The position numbers and the translations under genes are program-made. From NCBI GenBank assembly GCA_947496235.1, contig CANMCE010000004.1, positions 62,001-126,000 on the forward strand: a stretch of 64,000 nt of DNA, written 5' to 3'. Positions 3,124-29,322 of the stretch are shown piece by piece; positions within the stretch are counted from its first letter, which is position 1; the number at the start of each line of letters is the position of its first letter. The notes under the pieces were generated by a model. The model did not search any database and was not told where the DNA came from. It saw only the letters and a list, made by a program, of their open reading frames with translations. This DNA is from an uncultured Glaciecola sp. GTDB lineage: Bacteria; Pseudomonadota; Gammaproteobacteria; Enterobacterales; Alteromonadaceae.

Positions 3124-3749
3124 AATAAAATCTCCACCACCACACAGTCGTAGTCGTCAGAACCATCTGAATTACATGCACTATTGGCAATTCGGTCTTG
3201 ATTTTGCCAACTTGGTGCTGGCCATTTCACCATAATTTGTTGAATAGAACCGGCAGTACAGCTATCAGCATCAGTATCATCTTTGTCAGAACAATTAACA
3301 GAAATTGTTGCCGCTGGATTAGAAGCAACGGTAGCGCAAGACATTTGATAGGCATCGAACACGGCAAAGTCGCTAGCACTGCATTCACCAGTTAAACAAT
3401 TTGGGACATCAGCGGGAATAGATAAACAGAAACAGTTGTAATCAGAAGCGCTGGAACCACAACTTAAGTTATTGAAGTTGTAGTTATTCGCATTGTAGTA
3501 AGCATTGTCAACGATAAAGCCATCAGTTACGTCTGATGCACTAACACTAGCTCTCAAGCGTTCAGCCATTTGCTGGGTTACCATAACAGCCTGAGTTCTC
3601 GACATTGCATTCTTATTTGAAAAGGATCCAATAAATTGCATTGATACAACACCCAACAATCCAATCGAAAGCACAAACAATGTCACCAAGACTTCTATCA
3701 TGGTGATGCCTTTTTGATGCTGTACCAATTTTCTTTTTGCTATTTTCAT
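3120..3749 (-). CDS. pilV: PilV-type minor pilin
   Basis: 209 residues from the ATG at 3749; an in-frame GTG at 3773 would add 8 residues, and neither has a strong ribosome site. The prepilin leader ends KG and is followed by ITMIEVLVTLFVLSIGLLGV, a textbook N-methylation signal. The C-terminal part is rich in cysteines (CGSS, CFCL, CLTGEC, CNSDG), suggesting several disulfides in the periplasm. PilV pilins join PilW, PilX and PilY1 at the pilus tip. It is first in the visible operon; no fimT or pilE gene lies upstream here, where ispH is found instead. Confidence 0.83.
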   Translation of the reverse strand: MKIAKRKLVQHQKGITMIEVLVTLFVLSIGLLGVVSMQFIGSFSNKNAMSRTQAVMVTQQMAERLRASVSASDVTDGFIVDNAYYNANNYNFNNLSCGSSASDYNCFCLSIPADVPNCLTGECSASDFAVFDAYQMSCATVASNPAATISVNCSDKDDTDADSCTAGSIQQIMVKWPAPSWQNQDRIANSACNSDGSDDYDCVVVEILL

Positions 3750-3890
3750 GCTGATACCAATTACTATTGCCACGAAACCACTTTATTATGGAATCGGCAA
3801 GATTTGGTTATTCAGTATGAGTCTAACGTATATATTTGGAAAAAATACTGTACTGAAGAATAGATTGAAAAATAACAATAGGTAATAAAA

Positions 3891-3915
3891 TCAGATAGAT
3901 GAGATATCTATCTGA
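3891..3915 (-). terminator. Rho-independent terminator after ispH
   Basis: Perfect 10-bp stem (TCAGATAGAT with ATCTATCTGA) and a 5-nt loop; on the minus strand it is followed by TTTTATTA. It lies 15 nt downstream of the ispH stop and separates the ispH operon from pilV. The stem is AT-rich, so strength may be moderate. Confidence 0.7.
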
Positions 3916-3930
3916 CTTTATATGAGATAT

Positions 3931-4875
3931 TTAGGAAACTTGTTTTATACGTAATTCTTTTGGCACTGCAAATTCGATACTTTCTTCGCGACCTTGACGT
4001 TCAGTAGCCTTGCTGGCTCCCCATTCAAGTAATTTATCAACCACGCCTTGCACTAGCACCTCTGGCGCAGAAGCTCCCGCAGTGACCCCCACATTAGAAT
4101 TTTCTGTAAACCAGTCCTGTTTTATGCAGTCTTTATCGGCAATCAGATAAGCAGTTGATCCCATCTTCTCTGCAAGCTCTCGCAATCGGTTTGAATTGGA
4201 ACTGTTTTGCGCGCCCACTACCAAAATTACATCACAATCCTTTGCCAGCTCTCTTATGGCATCTTGACGATTTTGGGTAGCGTAACAAATGTCATCCTTG
4301 CGCGGACCATCTATAGCAGGAAATTTTTCTCTTAGAGCTTCGATAACTTCCGCAGTATCGTCAACTGACAAAGTTGTTTGGCTACAGTAATAAAGTTCTT
4401 TAGGATTTTTTACTTCCAAGGTTGCAACGTCACTGGTAGATTCAACCAGATAAATGCCACCCTCAGGATTGTCATATTGTCCCATGGTCCCCTCGACTTC
4501 AGGATGACCATGATGCCCAATTAATACGCACTCAGTCCCTTTTTTACTGGCGCGCATAACTTCCATATGCACTTTAGTGACTAACGGACAGGTGGCATCG
4601 AAAATTTTAAGTCCTCTTGCTTCAGCTTCTTGTCGAACCGCTTGAGAAACGCCGTGAGCAGAGAAAATCACGATATTATCGTCAGGAATTTCATTCAGTT
4701 GATCGACAAAGATAGCACCTCTTTGTTTTAAGCCTTCTACCACAAAGCGGTTATGCACCACTTCATGACGCACATAAATCGGTGGTTCGAAAATTTCTAA
4801 CGCTCGTTCCACTATAGTAATGGCGCGGTCTACGCCTGCACAGAAGCCTCTCGGATTTGCTAAATGAATATCCAC
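3931..4875 (-). CDS. ispH: 4-hydroxy-3-methylbut-2-enyl diphosphate reductase
   Basis: Last enzyme of the MEP isoprenoid pathway: it reduces HMBPP to IPP and DMAPP with a [4Fe-4S] cluster. The 314 residues match the E. coli protein from end to end. Cluster cysteines are at 12 (ANPRGFCAG), 96 (DATCPLV) and about 197 (DDICYAT). The substrate residues His41, His74, His124 and Glu126 are present ([10 protein letters not shown]), as is the SSNSNRL motif. Start ATG at 4875 lies 5 nt after the fkpB stop. It is last in the ribF-ileS-lspA-fkpB-ispH operon, followed by a hairpin terminator. Confidence 0.97.
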
Positions 4876-4880
4876 AATTA

Positions 4881-5321
4881 TTACCTTACGTCGATGATTT
4901 CAACATCAAATATTACATCTTGCCCAGCTAACGGATGATTAAAATCAACCGTTACGGAATGCCCAGCAACGCTTCGAATGATACCCGGTAGTTCAGAACC
5001 ATCAGGTTGAGCAAAGCCCATAATCATACCTTCTTGTAAGTCAGCATCCGCTGGAAATTTAGTTCTATCTACATGATAGATATTATCGGGATTTGGCATG
5101 CCAAACGCATCATTTGCCGCTATTTCGAAAGATTTTGATTCACCTTTCTTCAAACCGCGCAAGCAATTTTCGAAGTTGACCGTCAGGCTTCCATCCCCCA
5201 TTACCATCTTAGCAGGCTTTTTACCCACTCTGGTACTATCGACAGCTGAACCATCTTTTAGTTTGAGATCAAAATGCAAAATCACTTCACTGGCATCGCC
5301 AATCACAGGCTCACTACTCAC
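4881..5321 (-). CDS. fkpB: FKBP-type peptidyl-prolyl isomerase FkpB (SlpA-like)
   Basis: 146 residues from the GTG at 5321. Folding helper of the FKBP/SlyD family with an inserted chaperone flap: FKBP part at both ends ([30 protein letters not shown]) and the insert in the middle (AFGMPNPD...[10 protein letters not shown]). The GTG start is preferred because a GAGG ribosome site lies 9 nt upstream and the N-terminus then matches E. coli FkpB; an upstream ATG at 5354 lacks such support. The start overlaps the lspA stop by 8 nt, a sign of coupled translation. Confidence 0.93.
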
Positions 5322-21081: not shown

Positions 21082-21366
21082 GCAGTTTGGTTAAAAAACT
21101 CTGCTTATTTTTAATGCTCCCTTTGATTCTGAAGAAAAAATAGGCGTTTTATCGCAAGAATTGCCTTTCTCCACTGCGCTTTGCACGATGATCAACCAAA
21201 AAAAACCTCTTTTTTATCACCTTTGGACGAATAGCGTTAATTTGTGGTGTATCTGTTTCCTTTGCCCACCAAATTTTTCTTACCTTATGCATCAGGGAAA
21301 GCAATCGCACTAAATTCCCTTACGAGATTGTTGTTCACATTAGTTATTAATTAAACCAAAGGAAAT
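21082..21366. other. Divergent upstream region of tig and the YHS-bufferin operon
   Basis: 285 nt without a convincing ORF. It must carry the promoter of the 21.4-24.2 kb operon, but no clear sigma-70 match and no CueR- or Fur-like palindrome could be read with confidence. AT-rich near the YHS gene, with AAAGGA as its ribosome site. Confidence 0.4.
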
Positions 21367-21849
21367 ATGAAAATGAGAATTTCTAAATTTATTAAAGTTG
21401 CTGGACTAGCCAGCTCAATTTTATTCAGTAGCTTCACTTTTGCTTCTTCAGTGAACTTAGGTGAAAACGACGTTGCAATTCATGGTTACGACCCAGTGGC
21501 GTATTTCGTTAAGAATATGGCCGTCGAAGGTAATGCAAAATTCACAGCGACTCATGAAGGTGCAATTTATCGTTTTGCAAGTGCAGAAAATCGCGATTTA
21601 TTTAAAGCCAATTCGGACAAGTATGCACCTCAGTTTGGTGGTTACTGTGCAATGGGTGTTGCGTTAAATAAGAAACTTGATGTTGACCCAAGCGCATTCT
21701 ATATCGAAGACGACAAACTATACCTCAACTTGAATAAAGCTGTTCAGAAAAAATGGCTTGAAGACGTTCCTGCGAACTTAAAAACCGCTTACCGCGTTTG
21801 GGATGGCATCGAAGGTCTTTCTGTAGCTGAAACTAACGCAGAGGAGTAA
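21367..21849 (+). CDS. Secreted YHS-domain protein
   Basis: 160 residues. A signal peptide (about residues 1-27, ending TFASS) precedes a YHS-like domain: HGYDPVAYF near 39, YRFASAENRDLF near 68-79, and GGYCAMGVA with the single conserved Cys94, a position occupied by Cys or selenocysteine in this family. YHS domains are linked to metal, often copper, or heme handling in the periplasm; the exact job here is not known. Start may be the ATG at 21367 or the one at 21373, which is better spaced from AAAGGA. It is the first gene of an operon with thioredoxin and bufferin genes (6 nt to the next start). Confidence 0.8.
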   Translation: MKMRISKFIKVAGLASSILFSSFTFASSVNLGENDVAIHGYDPVAYFVKNMAVEGNAKFTATHEGAIYRFASAENRDLFKANSDKYAPQFGGYCAMGVALNKKLDVDPSAFYIEDDKLYLNLNKAVQKKWLEDVPANLKTAYRVWDGIEGLSVAETNAEE

Positions 21850-21855
21850 GCACGA

Positions 21856-22182
21856 ATGAGTTCGGGTATTCAGGGAATTTCGCAAACTGGACATTTATTT
21901 CCAGAACCCATTGCCATGTTGTGGTTCAGCGCGCAATGGTGCGGTCCCTGTAAACAAATTACGCCTGTTATCAATATGCTTGAACAGGCGTATGCCGGCA
22001 CTGTCCGGATAGTCAAAATTGACGTAGATGAAGAAGTCGAGTTAGCGCAACAAATGGGTGTGCGTGCCGTTCCGACCATGATTCTACTTGATCGTAACAA
22101 GCGCCTCGATACGCATATCGGGGCTGGAAGTTTCGCTGAGTTATCTCAGTGGCTCCAAAGCAACATTACATTAATCGCATAA
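21856..22182 (+). CDS. Thioredoxin-fold protein (cytoplasmic)
   Basis: 108 residues without signal peptide. The WCGPC redox site has Cys29 and Cys32 ([10 protein letters not shown]), followed by the cis-proline loop [10 protein letters not shown], so it should be an active dithiol reductant of the thioredoxin family. The gene lies 6 nt after the YHS gene and 13 nt before the bufferin precursor, with GAGGAG as ribosome site inside the end of the YHS gene. A role in keeping precursor cysteines reduced before modification is an inference from position. Confidence 0.85.
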
Positions 22183-22195
22183 CGAGGTAATAAAG

Positions 22196-22486
22196 ATGAA
22201 AAATACGCAAACTATTGCAGCCGCCGCCCTAGCTATAGCGCTAACTGGCGTAGTCGCAGGTCCAGCACAAGCTGCCAGCAAAGAGAAGTGTTATGGCATT
22301 GCTGCCGCTGGCCAAAATGACTGTGGCAATCTAGCTGGAACCCATTCATGTGCAGGTCAATCGACAGTGGATAAAGATCCTGGCGAATGGAAATTGGTGC
22401 CAAAAGGCAGCTGTGAGTCTATGGGCGGAATGCTAAAAGCTGAAGCCAAAAAGCGTTACAAAGAGCAGCAACAAAAGAAAGACTAA
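22196..22486 (+). CDS. bufA: Bufferin-type RiPP precursor (DUF2282, BufA1-like)
   Basis: 96 residues. A Sec-type signal peptide (residues 1-26, ending AGPAQA) precedes a core with exactly four cysteines at 32, 43, 52 and 73 in the DUF2282 pattern [21 protein letters not shown] and KGSCESMGG, and a Lys/Gln-rich tail. DUF2282 proteins were recently described as bufferins: secreted, ribosomally made peptides whose cysteines are altered by an MNIO (DUF692) enzyme and which bind copper. The two genes that follow encode that enzyme and its partner. The ligand in this organism is not shown by sequence. Confidence 0.9.
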
Positions 22487-22516
22487 GCGAGAACCCTAAA
22501 CAGCGGAGGAACAAAG

Positions 22517-23431
22517 ATGACCGAGATACACCAAACACATAAAGCAGTACGTAAACCCGCCCCCGTGGGAGTTGGTTTGCGACACGAGCATTATTCAACG
22601 GCGTTATTGAAGTCATCGCCCTCTGTTGATTTTGTTGAAATTCACGCAGAAAATTTTTTTGCAAAAGGTGGAGCAATCAGCCGATTGCTCGATCAAATAG
22701 TAGATACCTACCCAGTCAGTATTCATGGCACTGCAATGGGATTGGGATCAGCTCAAGGGATCAGTGCAAATTATCTACGAAAATTTGTCCAGCTAGTGAA
22801 CCGCGTAAATCCAATATTGGTTTCTGACCACGCTTGTTTTACTTGGGGAGCGCTAGGCAATAATCCTGTTCATGCGGGCGATTTATTACCGCTCAAATAT
22901 GACCAAGCAACTCTGAATGTACTGGTAAATAACATTGACCAAGTACAGCAAGCACTAGGTCGACAAATATTGATTGAAAATATTGTCACCTACAAACATT
23001 TTGAAAATGAAGACTTCTATGAAGCAGCGTTTCTAGCTAAGGTCGCGGAAAAAACACAATGCGGCTTGCTAGTTGACTTAAACAATATATTGGTCAATTA
23101 CCATAACTTTTCCGATGCCAACCCTTTGCAAGCAGCGAAGAAATGGCTACAACATATTCCGCCACACCTAGTACAAGAACTGCATTTAGCTGGCAGCACT
23201 CCGGTGCAATCTGATGCATACATTGTGGACGACCACGGTCAACCTGTATCTGATGAATGTTGGGAATTGTATGAAACAACCCTTTCAATGTTTCCTAACG
23301 CAGCTGTCTTGATAGAGAGAGACAATAATCTTCCTAGCTGGACTGAACTAACCAATGAAGCAAAGCATGCTAGAGAAGTCGCAAACAAAAAGCATATGAA
23401 AGCAAAATCTTTGGAGGCTGCGTATGCCTAA
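22517..23431 (+). CDS. bufB: MNIO family (DUF692) RiPP-modifying enzyme, BufB-like
   Basis: 304 residues, TIM-barrel multinuclear non-heme iron oxidase family. Likely metal and active-site segments are intact: HAENFF (43-48), SIHGTAM (69-75), SDHACF (103-108), IENIVTY (153-159), VDLNNI (186-191), ELHLAG (221-226), DDHGQPV (238-244) and IERDNN (266-271). Such enzymes oxidise cysteines of the precursor to heterocycles; for bufferins thiooxazoles have been reported. The gene lies 30 nt after the precursor, with GGAGG as ribosome site, and overlaps bufC by 8 nt. Confidence 0.93.
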   Translation: MTEIHQTHKAVRKPAPVGVGLRHEHYSTALLKSSPSVDFVEIHAENFFAKGGAISRLLDQIVDTYPVSIHGTAMGLGSAQGISANYLRKFVQLVNRVNPILVSDHACFTWGALGNNPVHAGDLLPLKYDQATLNVLVNNIDQVQQALGRQILIENIVTYKHFENEDFYEAAFLAKVAEKTQCGLLVDLNNILVNYHNFSDANPLQAAKKWLQHIPPHLVQELHLAGSTPVQSDAYIVDDHGQPVSDECWELYETTLSMFPNAAVLIERDNNLPSWTELTNEAKHAREVANKKHMKAKSLEAAYA

Positions 23432-24176
23432 GTTAACCAAATCAGCATTGCAATATCAATCTGGCTTACTTACCCAAGTGTTTACTTTTAACAACCCAGA
23501 AAAAGATAAAGGGCTGCAAATATACCAGCATAATTTACACATGACTGCATTGCGCAGTTTAAGCATTAGCTATCCAGTGTTAGAAAAAATGATTGGAGAC
23601 CAAGCGCTTTTTATTTTAACGCGACGCTTATTGGACATTGAATTGCCTAAATCAGGGGACTGGGCTGATTGGGGAGCGAATTTACCTAGCTTAATTGCAC
23701 AAAGCGAAATGCATGAAGATCATCCCTATTTAACCGATATCGCAGCATTAGAATGGGCCTTTCATCAGTCCTCCCGAGCAGCTTTTGAGGACTTAAATAT
23801 CGGAAGTTTACAAGCGTTAAGTGAAGACGACTTAACCAATAGATATTTCGAATTACAACCTTCATTACGATTTGTATCCAGTGTGTTTCCAATTCACATT
23901 CTTTGGCAGTTACATCGTAACAGTGGAAGTTTAGATGGATTAACTAACCAATCACTGGAGAATGCAATGAATACTGAAGAAACAGGACTTTATATCGTTG
24001 GACAAACTGATTCTAGTCCACAAATTACCCAAGTTAGCGAGGATGAATATCAATTCATTCAAGGTATCTCTGAAGGCTTAAGCGTAGCTGCTTTATTAGA
24101 GAGTTTTGAAAATATTGATTTTGCACATTGGCTGACAAAGGCCATGCAGAGTCACTGGATTACTGGCATTAAATAG
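23424..24176 (+). CDS. bufC: DUF2063 partner protein of the MNIO enzyme, BufC-like
   Basis: 250 residues. The N-terminal DUF2063 domain (about 1-95) has the typical YQHNLHMTALRSLSISYPVLEKMIG segment in two parts and the aromatic DWADWGANLP motif; the C-terminal part ends in a helical region (GLSVAALLESFENIDFAHWL) as in RRE-like partner proteins. It is thought to deliver the precursor to the DUF692 enzyme. Overlap of 8 nt with bufB shows coupled translation. A terminator follows 25 nt later, closing the operon. Confidence 0.9.
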   Translation: MPKLTKSALQYQSGLLTQVFTFNNPEKDKGLQIYQHNLHMTALRSLSISYPVLEKMIGDQALFILTRRLLDIELPKSGDWADWGANLPSLIAQSEMHEDHPYLTDIAALEWAFHQSSRAAFEDLNIGSLQALSEDDLTNRYFELQPSLRFVSSVFPIHILWQLHRNSGSLDGLTNQSLENAMNTEETGLYIVGQTDSSPQITQVSEDEYQFIQGISEGLSVAALLESFENIDFAHWLTKAMQSHWITGIK

Positions 24177-24201: not shown

Positions 24202-24230
24202 GCGGTGTTTCCTTGCACCGCTTTTTTTTC
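24202..24230 (+). terminator. Terminator of the YHS-thioredoxin-bufferin operon
   Basis: Stem GCGGTG / CACCGC (24202-24207, 24216-24221) with an 8-nt loop, then eight T. It lies 25 nt after the bufC stop. Confidence 0.88.
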
Positions 24231-24542: not shown

Positions 24543-25052
24543 ATGAAATCTAAACATTATATTTTAGTAAGGCTATATATAGTGTTCGCACTTTTGTGTT
24601 ATGCGGTAGCCAGTCTTGCAGACGCACAACAAGGTAAACAGCAAAGCCTAATCGCTCCTGATTTCACATTCAGTGAAATATCGGGCGAAGAATATACCCT
24701 AAGTGAAAAGGTTAGCGGCAAACCTGCCTTGTTGTATTTTTGGGCGACCTGGTGTCCATACTGTAAGAAAGCTACCCCTAAAATCGTTGAGCTACACAAC
24801 AACTACTCAGACGTTATAGAAGTATTGGGCATTAACGTGGGAATTGATGACTCGGTAGAACTAACCCAAGCGTACATTGAAGAGTTTGACATCAAATTTC
24901 CAATCATGTTTGACCATGATAATTCGGTTAGTCAGTCTTACAACGTATTTGGAACCCCAGTATTTGTGGTTATATCAGATCAAGGCAAAATGCTATATAG
25001 AGGGCATGTGTATCCAGAAGGGATTGAACAAGCCTTGCAACCTACGCCATGA
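24543..25052 (+). CDS. TlpA/ResA-like periplasmic thioredoxin
   Basis: 169 residues. Signal peptide or anchor (about 8-28, VRLYIVFALLCYAVASLADA) followed by an AhpC/TSA-Redoxin type thioredoxin fold: APDFTFSEISG, redox site WCPYC at 70-74 (ATWCPYCKKATP), and the cis-proline loop FGTPVFVV. Such proteins reduce or isomerise disulfides in the periplasm, often for cytochrome c or copper sites. It shares a 4-nt ATGA overlap with the next gene, so the two are translated together. The partner is not known. Confidence 0.85.
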   Translation: MKSKHYILVRLYIVFALLCYAVASLADAQQGKQQSLIAPDFTFSEISGEEYTLSEKVSGKPALLYFWATWCPYCKKATPKIVELHNNYSDVIEVLGINVGIDDSVELTQAYIEEFDIKFPIMFDHDNSVSQSYNVFGTPVFVVISDQGKMLYRGHVYPEGIEQALQPTP

Positions 25053-25958: not shown

Positions 25959-26951
25959 TTATTCTGGCTCGTAACCTTCTAACGGGCCAAACAGAGTGAG
26001 ACGAGACTTAATAGTATTCGCTAATTCTTCTGTGAGAATTTTAGGTGCGCGCTTTTGGTCGATACAATCATTGTATTCTTTTAAAGTGGTGTAAAAACCT
26101 TCGGATATAGCTTCCGAGAGTTTTTGTCGTGTATGCACTGATAGTTGGGCTATTTTACTAATAGAAAGATTACGGCTAAAACGCGCAACCTTTCGATAAC
26201 AAAACCTCTCATTTACATAGCTATCGCTTCTTGCAATGAAATGTTCCATAAGAAGATACAAGAGAAAATTCAGATCAGGCTCAGGCAATAATAAAGAAAA
26301 TTCACTTTTTTTATTTTCAGGCAATTCTGAGTGTTCTGAAAGCAGTAGGCGAAAATCGAGTAATATTTCGTTGTTATAGCGTTGTTCGATATTCATAACC
26401 GCTATTTTAGCATGATCAAAACTTACCCCCTGCAACAAGTTTACTAACGCCCGTCTAAATTGAGTAAAAGTTTGAGCTGGTTGTTGATAAGACATAAACT
26501 CAGCTTGCGCCACAATGAGTGGTAAATCTTGATGGGTGCTAAAAGGCGCGCTTTTTTTATTGTTTACCTGTATTTTAAACCTTTCTCTTATTTCGTGTTC
26601 GCGTGCCTTTTTAATAGCAAGAAAAATAGTTTGAATAAGCTCAGAGGTTGGGAACTCGGGTTCTATTCGCCACCGTCGCCCATACACAATTTTTTTCTTA
26701 GTTTGGGAATGAATTGGTTTAAAGGTGTCATAGCCAACGATACCGATTTGAACGAAAAGTCCAAATCCATCCTCTCCTGCCATAATGATGTAATCGTCAT
26801 CGAAATCACAATCTAATATGATTTGCTGAACTGACGCTAAAGTATGTCGGTAGGATAAATAATGTTGCGGAATACATTGAGCCCCACTTTCAAGATGCAC
26901 CTTAGGAGCATTTGTCAGGGGGCTCTCACCGATAATAGGGTCCCAATCCAT
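25959..26951 (-). CDS. Hypothetical protein, 330 residues
   Basis: No signal peptide or membrane helix. I do not recognise a family. The N-terminal 100 residues look alpha/beta (DDDYIIMAGEDGFGLFVQIGIVGYD), and the rest is rich in helices with many charged residues (FCYRKVARFSRNLSISKIAQLSVHT reads like a helix-turn-helix). It lies 13 nt after the DoxX gene on the same strand, so the two are likely cotranscribed. Convergent with the TetR gene. Ribosome site before 26951 is weak. Confidence 0.6.
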   Translation of the reverse strand: MDWDPIIGESPLTNAPKVHLESGAQCIPQHYLSYRHTLASVQQIILDCDFDDDYIIMAGEDGFGLFVQIGIVGYDTFKPIHSQTKKKIVYGRRWRIEPEFPTSELIQTIFLAIKKAREHEIRERFKIQVNNKKSAPFSTHQDLPLIVAQAEFMSYQQPAQTFTQFRRALVNLLQGVSFDHAKIAVMNIEQRYNNEILLDFRLLLSEHSELPENKKSEFSLLLPEPDLNFLLYLLMEHFIARSDSYVNERFCYRKVARFSRNLSISKIAQLSVHTRQKLSEAISEGFYTTLKEYNDCIDQKRAPKILTEELANTIKSRLTLFGPLEGYEPE

Positions 26952-26964
26952 AAATCATTCGCAC

Positions 26965-27447
26965 CTAAGCAGTTGCTAACCTAGGTTGTGCATCCTGGCT
27001 ATGCACTCTACCAAATGTAAAATAATCAAGAGAAAGTTTACCTGCACCCCATACCGTAATATGTAGCAAGATTAATCCCCAAATAATGTGACCATACAAG
27101 GCTGCAGCTGCAATATCTTCTAAACTTATGACAGCCACAATATTGACTATACCTAAACCAAGAGCACTAATCCGGCTTACAAATCCTAAGGCTAATAATA
27201 CAGGTAAGAAAAGTTCAGCGATGGTAGCCAAATATGCAGACAATACAAAGGGTAACACTGGTACATGATATTCGTATTCAAACAAAAATAATGTGGTTTC
27301 CCAGTCATCAATTTTGGTTAAGCCAGAAGCAAAAAACACCCAAGCTACATAAAAGCGCCCTATTATGGCTAATACGCTTTGCAATGGTAAAAAAAGTGTA
27401 GCAGAAAGCTCGCGCAATCTAACTATGATTAAACTTAATGGTTTCAC
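26965..27447 (-). CDS. DoxX family membrane protein
   Basis: 160 residues, four transmembrane helices. DoxX features: RFYVAWVFFASGLTKI near 30-45, then AYLATIAELFLPVLLALGF and the C-terminal GHIIWGLILLHITVWGAG with a His in the third or fourth helix. Start is GTG at 27447 with AAGGA at 8 nt. DoxX genes often stand beside DUF692/DUF2063 genes in bufferin-type operons; here the gene is about 2.8 kb from bufC and on the other strand, so any link is only suggested. Confidence 0.85.
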   Translation of the reverse strand: MKPLSLIIVRLRELSATLFLPLQSVLAIIGRFYVAWVFFASGLTKIDDWETTLFLFEYEYHVPVLPFVLSAYLATIAELFLPVLLALGFVSRISALGLGIVNIVAVISLEDIAAAALYGHIIWGLILLHITVWGAGKLSLDYFTFGRVHSQDAQPRLATA

Positions 27448-27556
27448 AATACAATTCCTTATTAAATGTCAGCTCTAAACTCAGTATTCTGGCAATTCGC
27501 CATTAGCTATAAGGTACTTTGAATTAATCAGCGAAAATAACCCGATTGTCTTGGAT

Positions 27557-28441
27557 TTATAGCTGATCGTATAGATTATTCCCATTAGGTTCTGGATCTA
27601 ATTGTAAGGGTTGACTTTTATCTCTCTTTGGTTTTTTTAACCACTGTTTTGGCGATATTCCCAGCTTTTTCCTGAATAATCGCGCTAACGCAGAACCATG
27701 TTCATACCCCACCATATTCGCTACCAGATTGACGGGTTTATGTGCTTCTAACATTTCTTGTGCAATAGCAATACGAATGTCAGTCAAGTAATCATTTGGA
27801 GTAACGCCTACAACAGATTTAAAGGTAGCGGCAAACCTTGAACGGGACATAGCCGCTATTTCAGCTAGGGAATCTACTGTCCAATTTTCTTCTGGGCGAT
27901 TGTGCATAGCACTGATAACCTTCGCCATCATAGGATGTGTAAGTGCTGCTAAAATGCCGCCTTTCACTAATTCATTTTCTAAAACATAGCGTAATATCTG
28001 GAATAAAAATATCTCACTCAGCTTATCTACCATCACAGCTCTTGTCACTGACCGACTAAAAGCTTCGTCAAATAACCATTGCGCGGTTTGCGCAATGTAG
28101 GGTTCTAGATCTAAAGGTAAGATGAGTAAAGGTGGTAAAGCCTCTAATAACAACTTCTGGTTCGCAGATTCCATGCTTACAGTGGCGCACACCATTTCAG
28201 CTCCCTCTGATTGCTCTGCTAAAATTCTGTGTTCAATTGCACCTGGAATGAATATAACCGAAGGGACATTAATGACCTGTTTGTTTCCATCTTGCATCAA
28301 AATAGTAAGGCAACCCGATTTAAGTAAATGCAGGTGACCTTTTTGGTCAGATGAAAAAGACTGAATACCGCAAAGTTTACCGCTGAAGAAAACATCTGCC
28401 TTGAGGGATATCCGTCGAATTATATCTGTTATATTTTCCAT
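27557..28441 (-). CDS. AraC-type regulator with cupin-like N-terminal domain (1)
   Basis: 294 residues from the ATG at 28441, which follows AAAGAG; an ATG 18 nt upstream has no ribosome site. N-terminal cupin-type ligand domain (about 1-170: GHLHLLKSGCLTILM, VIFIPGAIEHRI), C-terminal AraC double helix-turn-helix (about 180-285: MSRSRFAATFKSVVGVTPNDYLT, GYEHGSALARLFRKKLGISP). Clearly paralogous to the next gene upstream, which lies 35 nt away on the same strand. Likely targets are its neighbours such as DoxX. Confidence 0.9.
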   Translation of the reverse strand: MENITDIIRRISLKADVFFSGKLCGIQSFSSDQKGHLHLLKSGCLTILMQDGNKQVINVPSVIFIPGAIEHRILAEQSEGAEMVCATVSMESANQKLLLEALPPLLILPLDLEPYIAQTAQWLFDEAFSRSVTRAVMVDKLSEIFLFQILRYVLENELVKGGILAALTHPMMAKVISAMHNRPEENWTVDSLAEIAAMSRSRFAATFKSVVGVTPNDYLTDIRIAIAQEMLEAHKPVNLVANMVGYEHGSALARLFRKKLGISPKQWLKKPKRDKSQPLQLDPEPNGNNLYDQL

Positions 28442-28476
28442 TAAATGCTCTTTTTTCATTGATTAAAATTAAAAGG

Positions 28477-29322
28477 CTATCTATCACAAGTTGCCATTTC
28501 ATTTTGGGCACTTCGATTCTGTTGTAACCATTGTCGAGGAGAAACACCCAATTTCTTTTTGAAAATCCTTACCAAAGCGGAACCATGTTCATAGCCAACC
28601 TCACCTGCAACAAATCCAATGGGTTTGTTTTTGGATAATAGTTTTTGCGCTAAGGCAAGTCTGAGATCTGTGATGTATCCATTTGGTGTCTGTCCCACCA
28701 GCATTTTAAAATGCTCAGCAAATTTAGACCGTGACATTGCCGCAATACTTGCAAGATTATTTAATGTCCATTGATGACCTGGTGTTTTGTGTATAGCTTC
28801 AATCACTCTGCGCATTTGAGGATGGTTTATTGCCGCTAGCGCACCCTGATGCAAACTACCGTTTTCAGTAGCATGACGAAGGATCAGCAACATAAAAATT
28901 TCGCCAAGCTTATCTATGATCAGTTCTTTACCAAACCTTTGCTCAAATACTTCTTCAAATAACCATTGGACCGTACAGGATAGAGAACAAGCTGGGCTGA
29001 TTTGCAAATAAACGATTTCTGGCAACGCATTCATCAAAATCGACGATTCATGAATGTTAAAAGACAGACTGGCACTAATGATACTGGCAGCTTCTTGTCC
29101 TACAGATTCAAGATGATGCTGGCAACCTATGGGCAATAAGACAATGGAAGGTCGATCCAGCAAAATTTCCGACTTTCCTTTTCTATGAATGCGAACTTTG
29201 CCTGACCTTAACAGGTGTAATTGACCTTTTTGGGTGAAATGTTTAACACCTTTAAAGTGCCCATTATGATTAACAACTGTTGAAAAACTATGTTGATTGA
29301 GGATGCCACCTAAATTATCCAT
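28477..29322 (-). CDS. AraC-type regulator with cupin-like N-terminal domain (2)
   Basis: 281 residues, same build as its neighbour: cupin-type domain (GQLHLLRSGKVRIHR, SIVLLPIGCQHHL) and AraC HTH domain (MSRSKFAEHFKMLVGQTPNGYIT, GYEHGSALVRIFKKKLGVSP). The two proteins share the whole domain order and most HTH residues, so they probably arose by tandem duplication. Start ATG 29322 follows GCGAGA. The ligand is unknown. Confidence 0.9.
   Translation of the reverse strand: MDNLGGILNQHSFSTVVNHNGHFKGVKHFTQKGQLHLLRSGKVRIHRKGKSEILLDRPSIVLLPIGCQHHLESVGQEAASIISASLSFNIHESSILMNALPEIVYLQISPACSLSCTVQWLFEEVFEQRFGKELIIDKLGEIFMLLILRHATENGSLHQGALAAINHPQMRRVIEAIHKTPGHQWTLNNLASIAAMSRSKFAEHFKMLVGQTPNGYITDLRLALAQKLLSKNKPIGFVAGEVGYEHGSALVRIFKKKLGVSPRQWLQQNRSAQNEMATCDR

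Follow-up and report, generated by a model that had tools for sequence, protein, structure and literature searches.

A bufferin-type operon with YHS and thioredoxin genes

We analysed a 64 kb stretch of DNA from the genome of an uncultured Glaciecola species (the whole stretch is referred to here as the window), which holds an operon of five genes for a secreted YHS protein, a thioredoxin, a DUF2282 precursor of the bufferin type, its MNIO maturase and a DUF2063 partner protein (Table 1). The five genes share one orientation; the first three intervals measure 6, 13 and 30 nt, the MNIO and DUF2063 genes overlap by 8 nt, and after them comes a terminator-like hairpin that is weak evidence by itself, as the 64 kb hold four hairpin-type sites against 2.8 expected. 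With their YHS, thioredoxin and AraC-type regulator genes, this locus and its relatives look like a redox-controlled version of the known copper-buffering bufferin system. The best-supported reading, to which we give about an even chance, is that of a bufferin operon of the DUF2282 (Buf1) type that is wired to thiol redox, with a thiol-switch regulator and a dithiol reductant of its own.

An earlier, sequence-only reading had drawn the same five genes with the 6 and 13 nt gaps, had placed the precursor cysteines at residues 32, 43, 52 and 73, and had assigned the set to the bufferins. Our open-reading frame (ORF) list and Pfam/NCBIfam searches reproduced the genes, their identities, the gaps and the cysteine positions, and the DUF2282, MNIO and DUF2063 genes all had Pfam matches. 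Its five-gene layout held in that all five genes are present, but was drawn too narrowly, as the locus is larger and a DoxX membrane protein and an AraC regulator belong to it too. The core is that of the Buf1 (DUF2282) clusters of the GIG/captophorin type, which have the same secreted four-Cys DUF2282 precursor, MNIO, DUF2063 and DoxX: in the window a four-Cys precursor with a signal peptide (judged by eye) adjoins the MNIO and DUF2063 genes, and DoxX lies 2.8 kb downstream on the opposite strand. Some Buf1 clusters have sigma/anti-sigma genes (PMC12452194; this and the other papers are cited from parts of their texts), whereas an AraC gene is found here. The four precursor cysteines are kept in 41 of 41 DUF2282 proteins from 39 YHS-bearing loci. 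In the profile search the MNIO protein scored 292 bits against the NCBIfam BufB family (NF050167), below the cut-off of 310, and comes close enough to be called BufB-like rather than a certified BufB.

Table 1 Features of the window discussed in the text, with profile scores and structural remarks.
Feature	Position	Strand	Remarks
Putative AraC operator	21223-21258	+	first half-site 21225-21240, second degenerate; position weight matrix (PWM) 14.4 bits
YHS protein, secreted	21367-21849	+	single conserved Cys94; NF041384 148 bits; model pLDDT (predicted local distance difference test) 90.9
WCGPC thioredoxin	21856-22182	+	PF00085 77 bits; no signal peptide by eye
BufA-type precursor, DUF2282	22196-22486	+	PF10048 90 bits; Cys32/43/52/73; signal peptide by eye
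MNIO maturase, BufB type	22517-23431	+	PF05114 (MbnB_TglH_ChrH) 281 bits; aligned to 3bww
DUF2063 MNIO partner, BufC type	23424-24176	+	PF09836 31 bits, cut-off 27.2
Intrinsic terminator-like hairpin 3' of DUF2063	24202-24229	+	7-bp stem, 8 T
TlpA/ResA-like secreted thioredoxin	24543-25052	+	beyond terminator-like hairpin; Pfam/NCBIfam
ORF330, family of unknown function	25959-26951	-	no Pfam/NCBIfam match
DoxX (HvfX-like) membrane protein	26965-27447	-	PF07681 59.7 bits; NF050144 53 bits, cut-off 80
AraC-2, AraC/Cupin_6 regulator	27557-28459	-	RclR-like Cys pair C30/C91
AraC-1, second AraC/Cupin_6 regulator	28477-29322	-	without Cys pair

Recurrence of the layout across genomes

A search for the YHS family and DUF2282 in 197 genomes of the order placed a YHS gene within 2 kb of 22 of the 80 DUF2282 matches (21 loci in 19 genomes), where about 0.09 would be expected. 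In every one of these 22 pairs YHS was upstream and in the same orientation, the next YHS gene on the same contig being 244,536 bp away; no count given here is corrected for kinship. By eye, a class-wide sample of 369 genomes, in which contig breaks may hide cases, yielded the Glaciecola genome itself, genome G006 and genome G409 (with a partial YHS gene holding a stop), with no others noticed, and the layout therefore appears rarer outside the order. When named genomes were scanned with the YHS alignment, at least 592 relatives turned up, of which the 80 best loci were kept. DUF2282 stood beside YHS in 20 of these 80; carriers include Marisediminitalea, Alteromonas, Psychromonas, Colwellia, Cognaticolwellia, Moritella, Motiliproteus, Marinobacter, a betaproteobacterial metagenome-assembled genome and Deefgea. 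Loci L091 and L095 were left out as copies of order-survey genomes, and the resulting set of 39 comprises 21 order-survey and 18 named loci.

Within these 39 loci, which all hold DUF2282 and YHS by selection, a profile match anywhere in the stretch (L075 ends at a contig end, L002 has flanks of 1.5 kb) was found for MNIO in 37, DUF2063 in 36, DoxX in 37, AraC in 32 and thioredoxin in 22; together with the 22 of 80 DUF2282 genes with YHS nearby, these figures answer the co-occurrence check that the sequence-only reading had named, and in its favour. As a control we took 52 YHS-negative DUF2282 loci with 1.5 kb flanks from two best-scoring lists (23 from the order; the DUF2282 ORF was called by profile in 44), which contained one weak thioredoxin match (20 bits) and no AraC, compared with four thioredoxins and three AraC genes in the six YHS-positive loci of the same lists (Fisher p 1.7e-4 and 6.5e-4, kinship ignored).

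The locus might instead be an ordinary copper-stress bufferin operon, with YHS and thioredoxin as general envelope or thiol-stress genes on a shared promoter, outside the peptide pathway, and with an AraC protein that senses a metal or another ligand rather than oxidants. Bufferins bind excess copper and their core consists of precursor, MNIO, DUF2063 and DoxX (PMC12452194), and at six loci (L094, L098, L103, L110, L113 and L115) the examined stretch contains an AraC-YHS pair and no bufferin gene, both of which fit this alternative; the invariable position and strand of YHS in the adjacent pairs speak against it, and on balance we consider it unlikely, if far from negligible.

Several loci depart from the layout of the window. 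The second bufferin locus of the same genome (L002, contig C3) has the order YHS-DUF2282-MNIO-DUF2063-DoxX without a thioredoxin, and its YHS protein carries a lipobox-like LASC. At L073 in genome G134, YHS, thioredoxin, DUF2282 and DoxX occur without MNIO and DUF2063; the enzyme pair is found at a second locus of that genome (L074), and one maturase may therefore serve two precursors. Tandem pairs of DUF2282 precursor genes are present in the Psychromonas loci L072, L093 and L095 (L072 and L095 being the same).

The YHS protein

The YHS protein of the window scored 148.2 bits against NF041384, the YHS (seleno)protein family (cut-off 70), and 29 bits against the Pfam YHS profile, just under the cut-off of 30.3. 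The motif GG[YF]CA is present in 39 of 39 bufferin-locus YHS proteins and, past residue 30, 38 of them have a single cysteine, the exception having a doubtful start. Over an alignment of 50 diverse family members D42, Y46, G55, F70, F79, P88, G91, G92, C94, N121 and W145 are invariant, and no histidine or methionine is. A fold search with the model gave no match at E <= 0.001 and nothing convincing beyond YHS-like segments; the top rows, amid many due to chance, were adenylate kinase 9 (1.0e-03) with a related entry for the axoneme, and segments of toluene monooxygenase.

These data bear on the version of the sequence-only reading, in which YHS would bind metal in the periplasm as a receptor of copper-loaded bufferin and the thioredoxin would hold the precursor thiols in the reduced state. 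The protein looks secreted (by eye), is strongly co-located with the precursor, and belongs to a domain type described in Pfam as possibly metal-binding. However, the single cysteine and the lack of an invariant histidine or methionine among the 50 members sit poorly with a metal receptor, and one family member is listed in a selenocysteine form with a GxU motif (PMC13188914), which suggests redox chemistry and whose U would, judging from the motif, take the position of Cys94. We regard the receptor version as improbable; because of the one conserved cysteine and the absence of invariant histidine or methionine, a thiol role of YHS appears at least as likely as one in meeting the metal-bound product. 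Selenocysteine-encoding YHS genes were found in none of the 39 bufferin loci, where ORFs with an in-frame stop are uncallable, and the YHS searches that read through stops list no TGA.

A further alternative would make YHS and DoxX a thiol-oxidising pair of the periplasm and membrane that forms the outer Cys32-Cys73 disulfide of the bufferin. The DoxX match in 37 of the 39 loci is in its favour; on the other side, the general oxidase DsbA could make such a disulfide, and the membrane protein beside solo YHS genes corresponds to DoxX at just 16% probability, and is not claimed as one. The first and last cysteines of Buf1 do form a disulphide, but all four cysteines are also present in Buf1 clusters that lack YHS (PMC12452194), and we consider this pair very improbable.

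A tree of 125 YHS proteins has one group of 39 rows (support 88/87) that includes 27 of the 30 bufferin-linked proteins and also seven AraC-linked solo ones, and for this reason the AraC-YHS pair may be an older unit that later took up bufferin genes. Solo YHS genes in L021, L258, L270 and similar loci are preceded by a TANGO2/NRDE-type gene, and in L021 and L258 a membrane protein then follows, that of L021 matching MauE weakly at 19 bits, short of the cut-off.

The operon thioredoxin

Where a thioredoxin gene is present it lies between YHS and DUF2282 in 19 of 22 loci; in L108 it precedes YHS, and in L100 and L102 it follows DoxX. The window protein belongs to this family by its PF00085 match and WCGPC active site, and scored 84.5 bits against the NCBIfam equivalog TIGR01068, below the cut-off of 96.8. 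We built a tree of 21 bufferin-locus thioredoxins (eight of them from survey genomes, the others from named loci or Psychromonas copies) together with 26 further thioredoxins from 14 genomes of the order. On this tree the bufferin label requires two changes; shuffles gave 15.7, and none of the 500 reached so low a value. The bufferin-locus thioredoxins therefore look like a lineage of their own, not recent TrxA copies; the L108 protein falls with the non-bufferin ones, and the tree has several flagged long branches. The thioredoxin slot of Deefgea (L111) is taken by a glutaredoxin (59.8 bits), in a stretch where no MNIO or DUF2063 was found. Both the separate clustering and the glutaredoxin speak against general stress genes that merely share a promoter with a copper-stress operon.

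The related MNIO pair HvfBC needed dithiothreitol (DTT) in vitro, and the authors suggested that the substrate thiols and the iron cofactor must both stay reduced (2026 preprint, PMC13419390); elsewhere the need for an external reductant in MNIO turnover has been called unclear (PMC13097082). The DTT requirement makes it reasonable to suppose, as the sequence-only reading did, that the thioredoxin keeps the precursor thiols reduced, and adds the MNIO iron centre as a second possible target. The tree clustering, the glutaredoxin in the Deefgea slot and the DTT need all speak for such a putative reductant role, the precursor-directed part of which is plausible.

The AraC/Cupin_6 regulator and a putative operator

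An AraC gene is divergent from and directly adjoins YHS in 24 of the 39 loci. AraC-2 of the window matches PF12852 (Cupin_6) and PF12833 (the AraC helix-turn-helix) above their cut-offs, which we take to be the domains of Escherichia coli RclR as well. In a smaller alignment with RclR, C30 and C91 of AraC-2 stand opposite Cys21 and Cys89, and in an alignment of 49 rows the first AraC cysteine is opposite RclR residue 24, three positions off Cys21. Of the 29 non-identical bufferin-locus rows, some of them possibly the same gene with different boundaries, 28 and 29 carry the two cysteines; the corresponding figures are 13 and 16 of 16 for regulators next to solo YHS genes, and two and two for the four remaining rows. 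AraC-1 has neither cysteine, whether in the window or in L253 of genome G175, where two AraC/Cupin_6 paralogues likewise stand in tandem (3534-5276) and one of them keeps the pair. On profile evidence AraC-2 is RclR-like and would not be filed as RclR. Oxidation of the RclR cysteine pair to a disulfide activates the protein, which controls rclABC, and RclA is a Cu(II) reductase (PMC7464077, PMC7527725).

In the gaps between AraC and YHS, half-sites resembling GGACGATTGGGTTCAA are directly repeated, with 21 bp from one start to the next. This repeat was first spotted by eye with the window sequence in view, and a PWM was then trained on 13 other loci only; its best match on both strands of the whole window is the putative operator of Table 1, 108 bp before the YHS start, the next match scoring 12.3 bits. 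Twelve of the 25 upstream regions that were not used for training, among them those of the window and L253, attain about 10 bits (L094 and L255 are the same locus), and the best score in 44 YHS-negative bufferin upstream regions is 6.7 bits. The exact half-site pattern occurs once in the 4.4 Mb genome, upstream of the window YHS gene, and with up to one mismatch there are 22 sites, compared with 31 in the control. The tandem pattern (one mismatch allowed) occurs in 11 of 15 genomes, once in each and always upstream of YHS (11/11; reversed control, 1); the four genomes without it include G134 and G023, both with bufferin-YHS loci. As the patterns were drawn partly from these sites, their presence there is expected and it is their absence elsewhere in the genomes that is informative, which suggests a local regulator. 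A second operator considered near position 27539 scored 6.4 bits, not above background.

Relation to known systems

The main text of PMC12452194 contains no occurrence of YHS, thioredoxin or AraC (its supplementary tables lie outside this count), and in the parts of the open-licence PMC literature covered, supplementary files being outside its scope, no YHS, thioredoxin or AraC gene is placed in a bufferin or DUF692 cluster, in line with the remark of the sequence-only reading that the layout was not one it knew as described. Co-occurring transcriptional regulators are mentioned, unnamed in the part covered (PMC13097082), and a LysR gene is reported in one DUF692 cluster (PMC8719888). For the NF041384 YHS (seleno)proteins, the same family as here, the text covered gives no function; here they are co-located with an operon for a ribosomally synthesised and post-translationally modified peptide.

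The E. coli RclR-rclABC system likewise has an AraC/Cupin_6-type regulator with an aligned Cys pair, encoded divergently from its target, and its targets likewise comprise, in a setting of copper and hypochlorous acid (HOCl), a redox enzyme of the cytoplasm together with one periplasmic and one membrane protein; DoxX and RclC were the target pair that we compared, and DoxX was rejected as an RclC homologue (hhalign probability 0.7%). The hvf/RpoE2 operon of Haemophilus influenzae also combines COG3220 (MNIO), DUF2063, DoxX and a periplasmic protein, and HOCl induces it via another regulator, RpoE2 (PMC7907618). It differs in its control by an extracytoplasmic function sigma factor and in its EGKCG-type peptide (PMC13097082), and no YHS or thioredoxin appears in the parts of these two texts covered.

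Proposed function

In the redox-wired reading that we prefer, the regulatory part of which rests on sequence conservation, a reactive oxidant (hypochlorite-like or copper-driven) would oxidise the RclR-like Cys pair of the AraC/Cupin_6 protein, and the oxidised regulator would switch on the operon from the 21 bp tandem operator before YHS. MNIO and DUF2063 would then convert the two central precursor cysteines into thiooxazoles in the cytoplasm, where the operon thioredoxin, as dithiol reductant, would keep the precursor cysteines free and/or the MNIO iron in its mixed-valent active state under oxidative and copper stress. The peptide would be exported by the Sec pathway to bind copper in the periplasm, where YHS, with its one cysteine, and the membrane protein DoxX would be redox or thiol partners of the peptide. 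This reading draws on the YHS-DUF2282 adjacency, the gene content of the loci relative to the control, the AraC Cys pair, the operator, the thioredoxin tree, the DTT need, the HOCl induction and the Deefgea glutaredoxin.

A number of observations weigh against it. The thioredoxin is not essential, since 17 of the 39 loci have no thioredoxin match, L002 of the same genome among them, as an ordinary copper-stress operon would allow; L073 and L111 have a thioredoxin or glutaredoxin beside the precursor and no MNIO in the stretch, so that a precursor-directed or unrelated role fits better there than service to the enzyme. The window AraC genes lie ~6 kb from YHS and are duplicated, one copy lacking the Cys pair, and L002 has no AraC in its 1.5 kb flanks. 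The second half-site of the window operator is poor and its lead over the next match is just 2.1 bits. Of the 25 upstream regions outside the training set, 13 score under 10 bits, L087 and L002 included, the latter with 1.0 bit and no good operator (L086 is also low, its YHS start probably being called too far upstream). The likeness to E. coli RclR also has its bounds, AraC-2 scoring 108.8 bits against the NCBIfam RclR family, far under the cut-off of 400, and the rclA-rclR gap holding no such operator (best 3.1 bits).

More tentatively, and with rather less confidence than in the redox-wired reading itself, these loci may form a distinct bufferin class, mainly of marine Gammaproteobacteria, in which a Cys-switch AraC protein links a thiooxazole metallophore with the sensing of oxidants, the physiological reductant of MNIO maturation is a thioredoxin or glutaredoxin specific to the pathway, and the YHS thiol or selenol is an envelope partner. 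The thioredoxin inside the operon is a concrete and directly testable candidate for the MNIO reductant. Bufferins would be connected with oxidant sensing through the AraC Cys pair and its operator, and such a switch would help explain induction by oxidative stress besides copper. For the YHS (seleno)protein family, the bufferin locus provides a strong genomic context.

Neighbouring genes

The window represents a dispersed form of the locus, with ORF330, DoxX and the two AraC genes at 25959-29322 on the minus strand, 2-5 kb downstream, and the same gene order (ORF330, DoxX, tandem AraC) recurs at L253 in G175. ORF330 is also found downstream of DoxX in L253, L068, L096 and L111, and no fold match to it was obtained in the PDB. 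It occurs in 14 of the 197 genomes of the order, in three of which it adjoins the DoxX gene of a bufferin locus; it was ruled out as a bufferin-tied gene, 11 of the 14 genomes having no bufferin genes in the ~1.5 kb flanks.

A relative of the TlpA/ResA-like thioredoxin gene that follows the hairpin lies 3' of DUF2063 in L066, and in L086 and L087 too, with a PagL-like gene in between. Genes of this PagL-like type (lipid A deacylase; the Pfam match was checked in L086) stand in or beside the bufferin loci L086 (9040-9603), L087 (8998-9573) and L068 (4902-5453).

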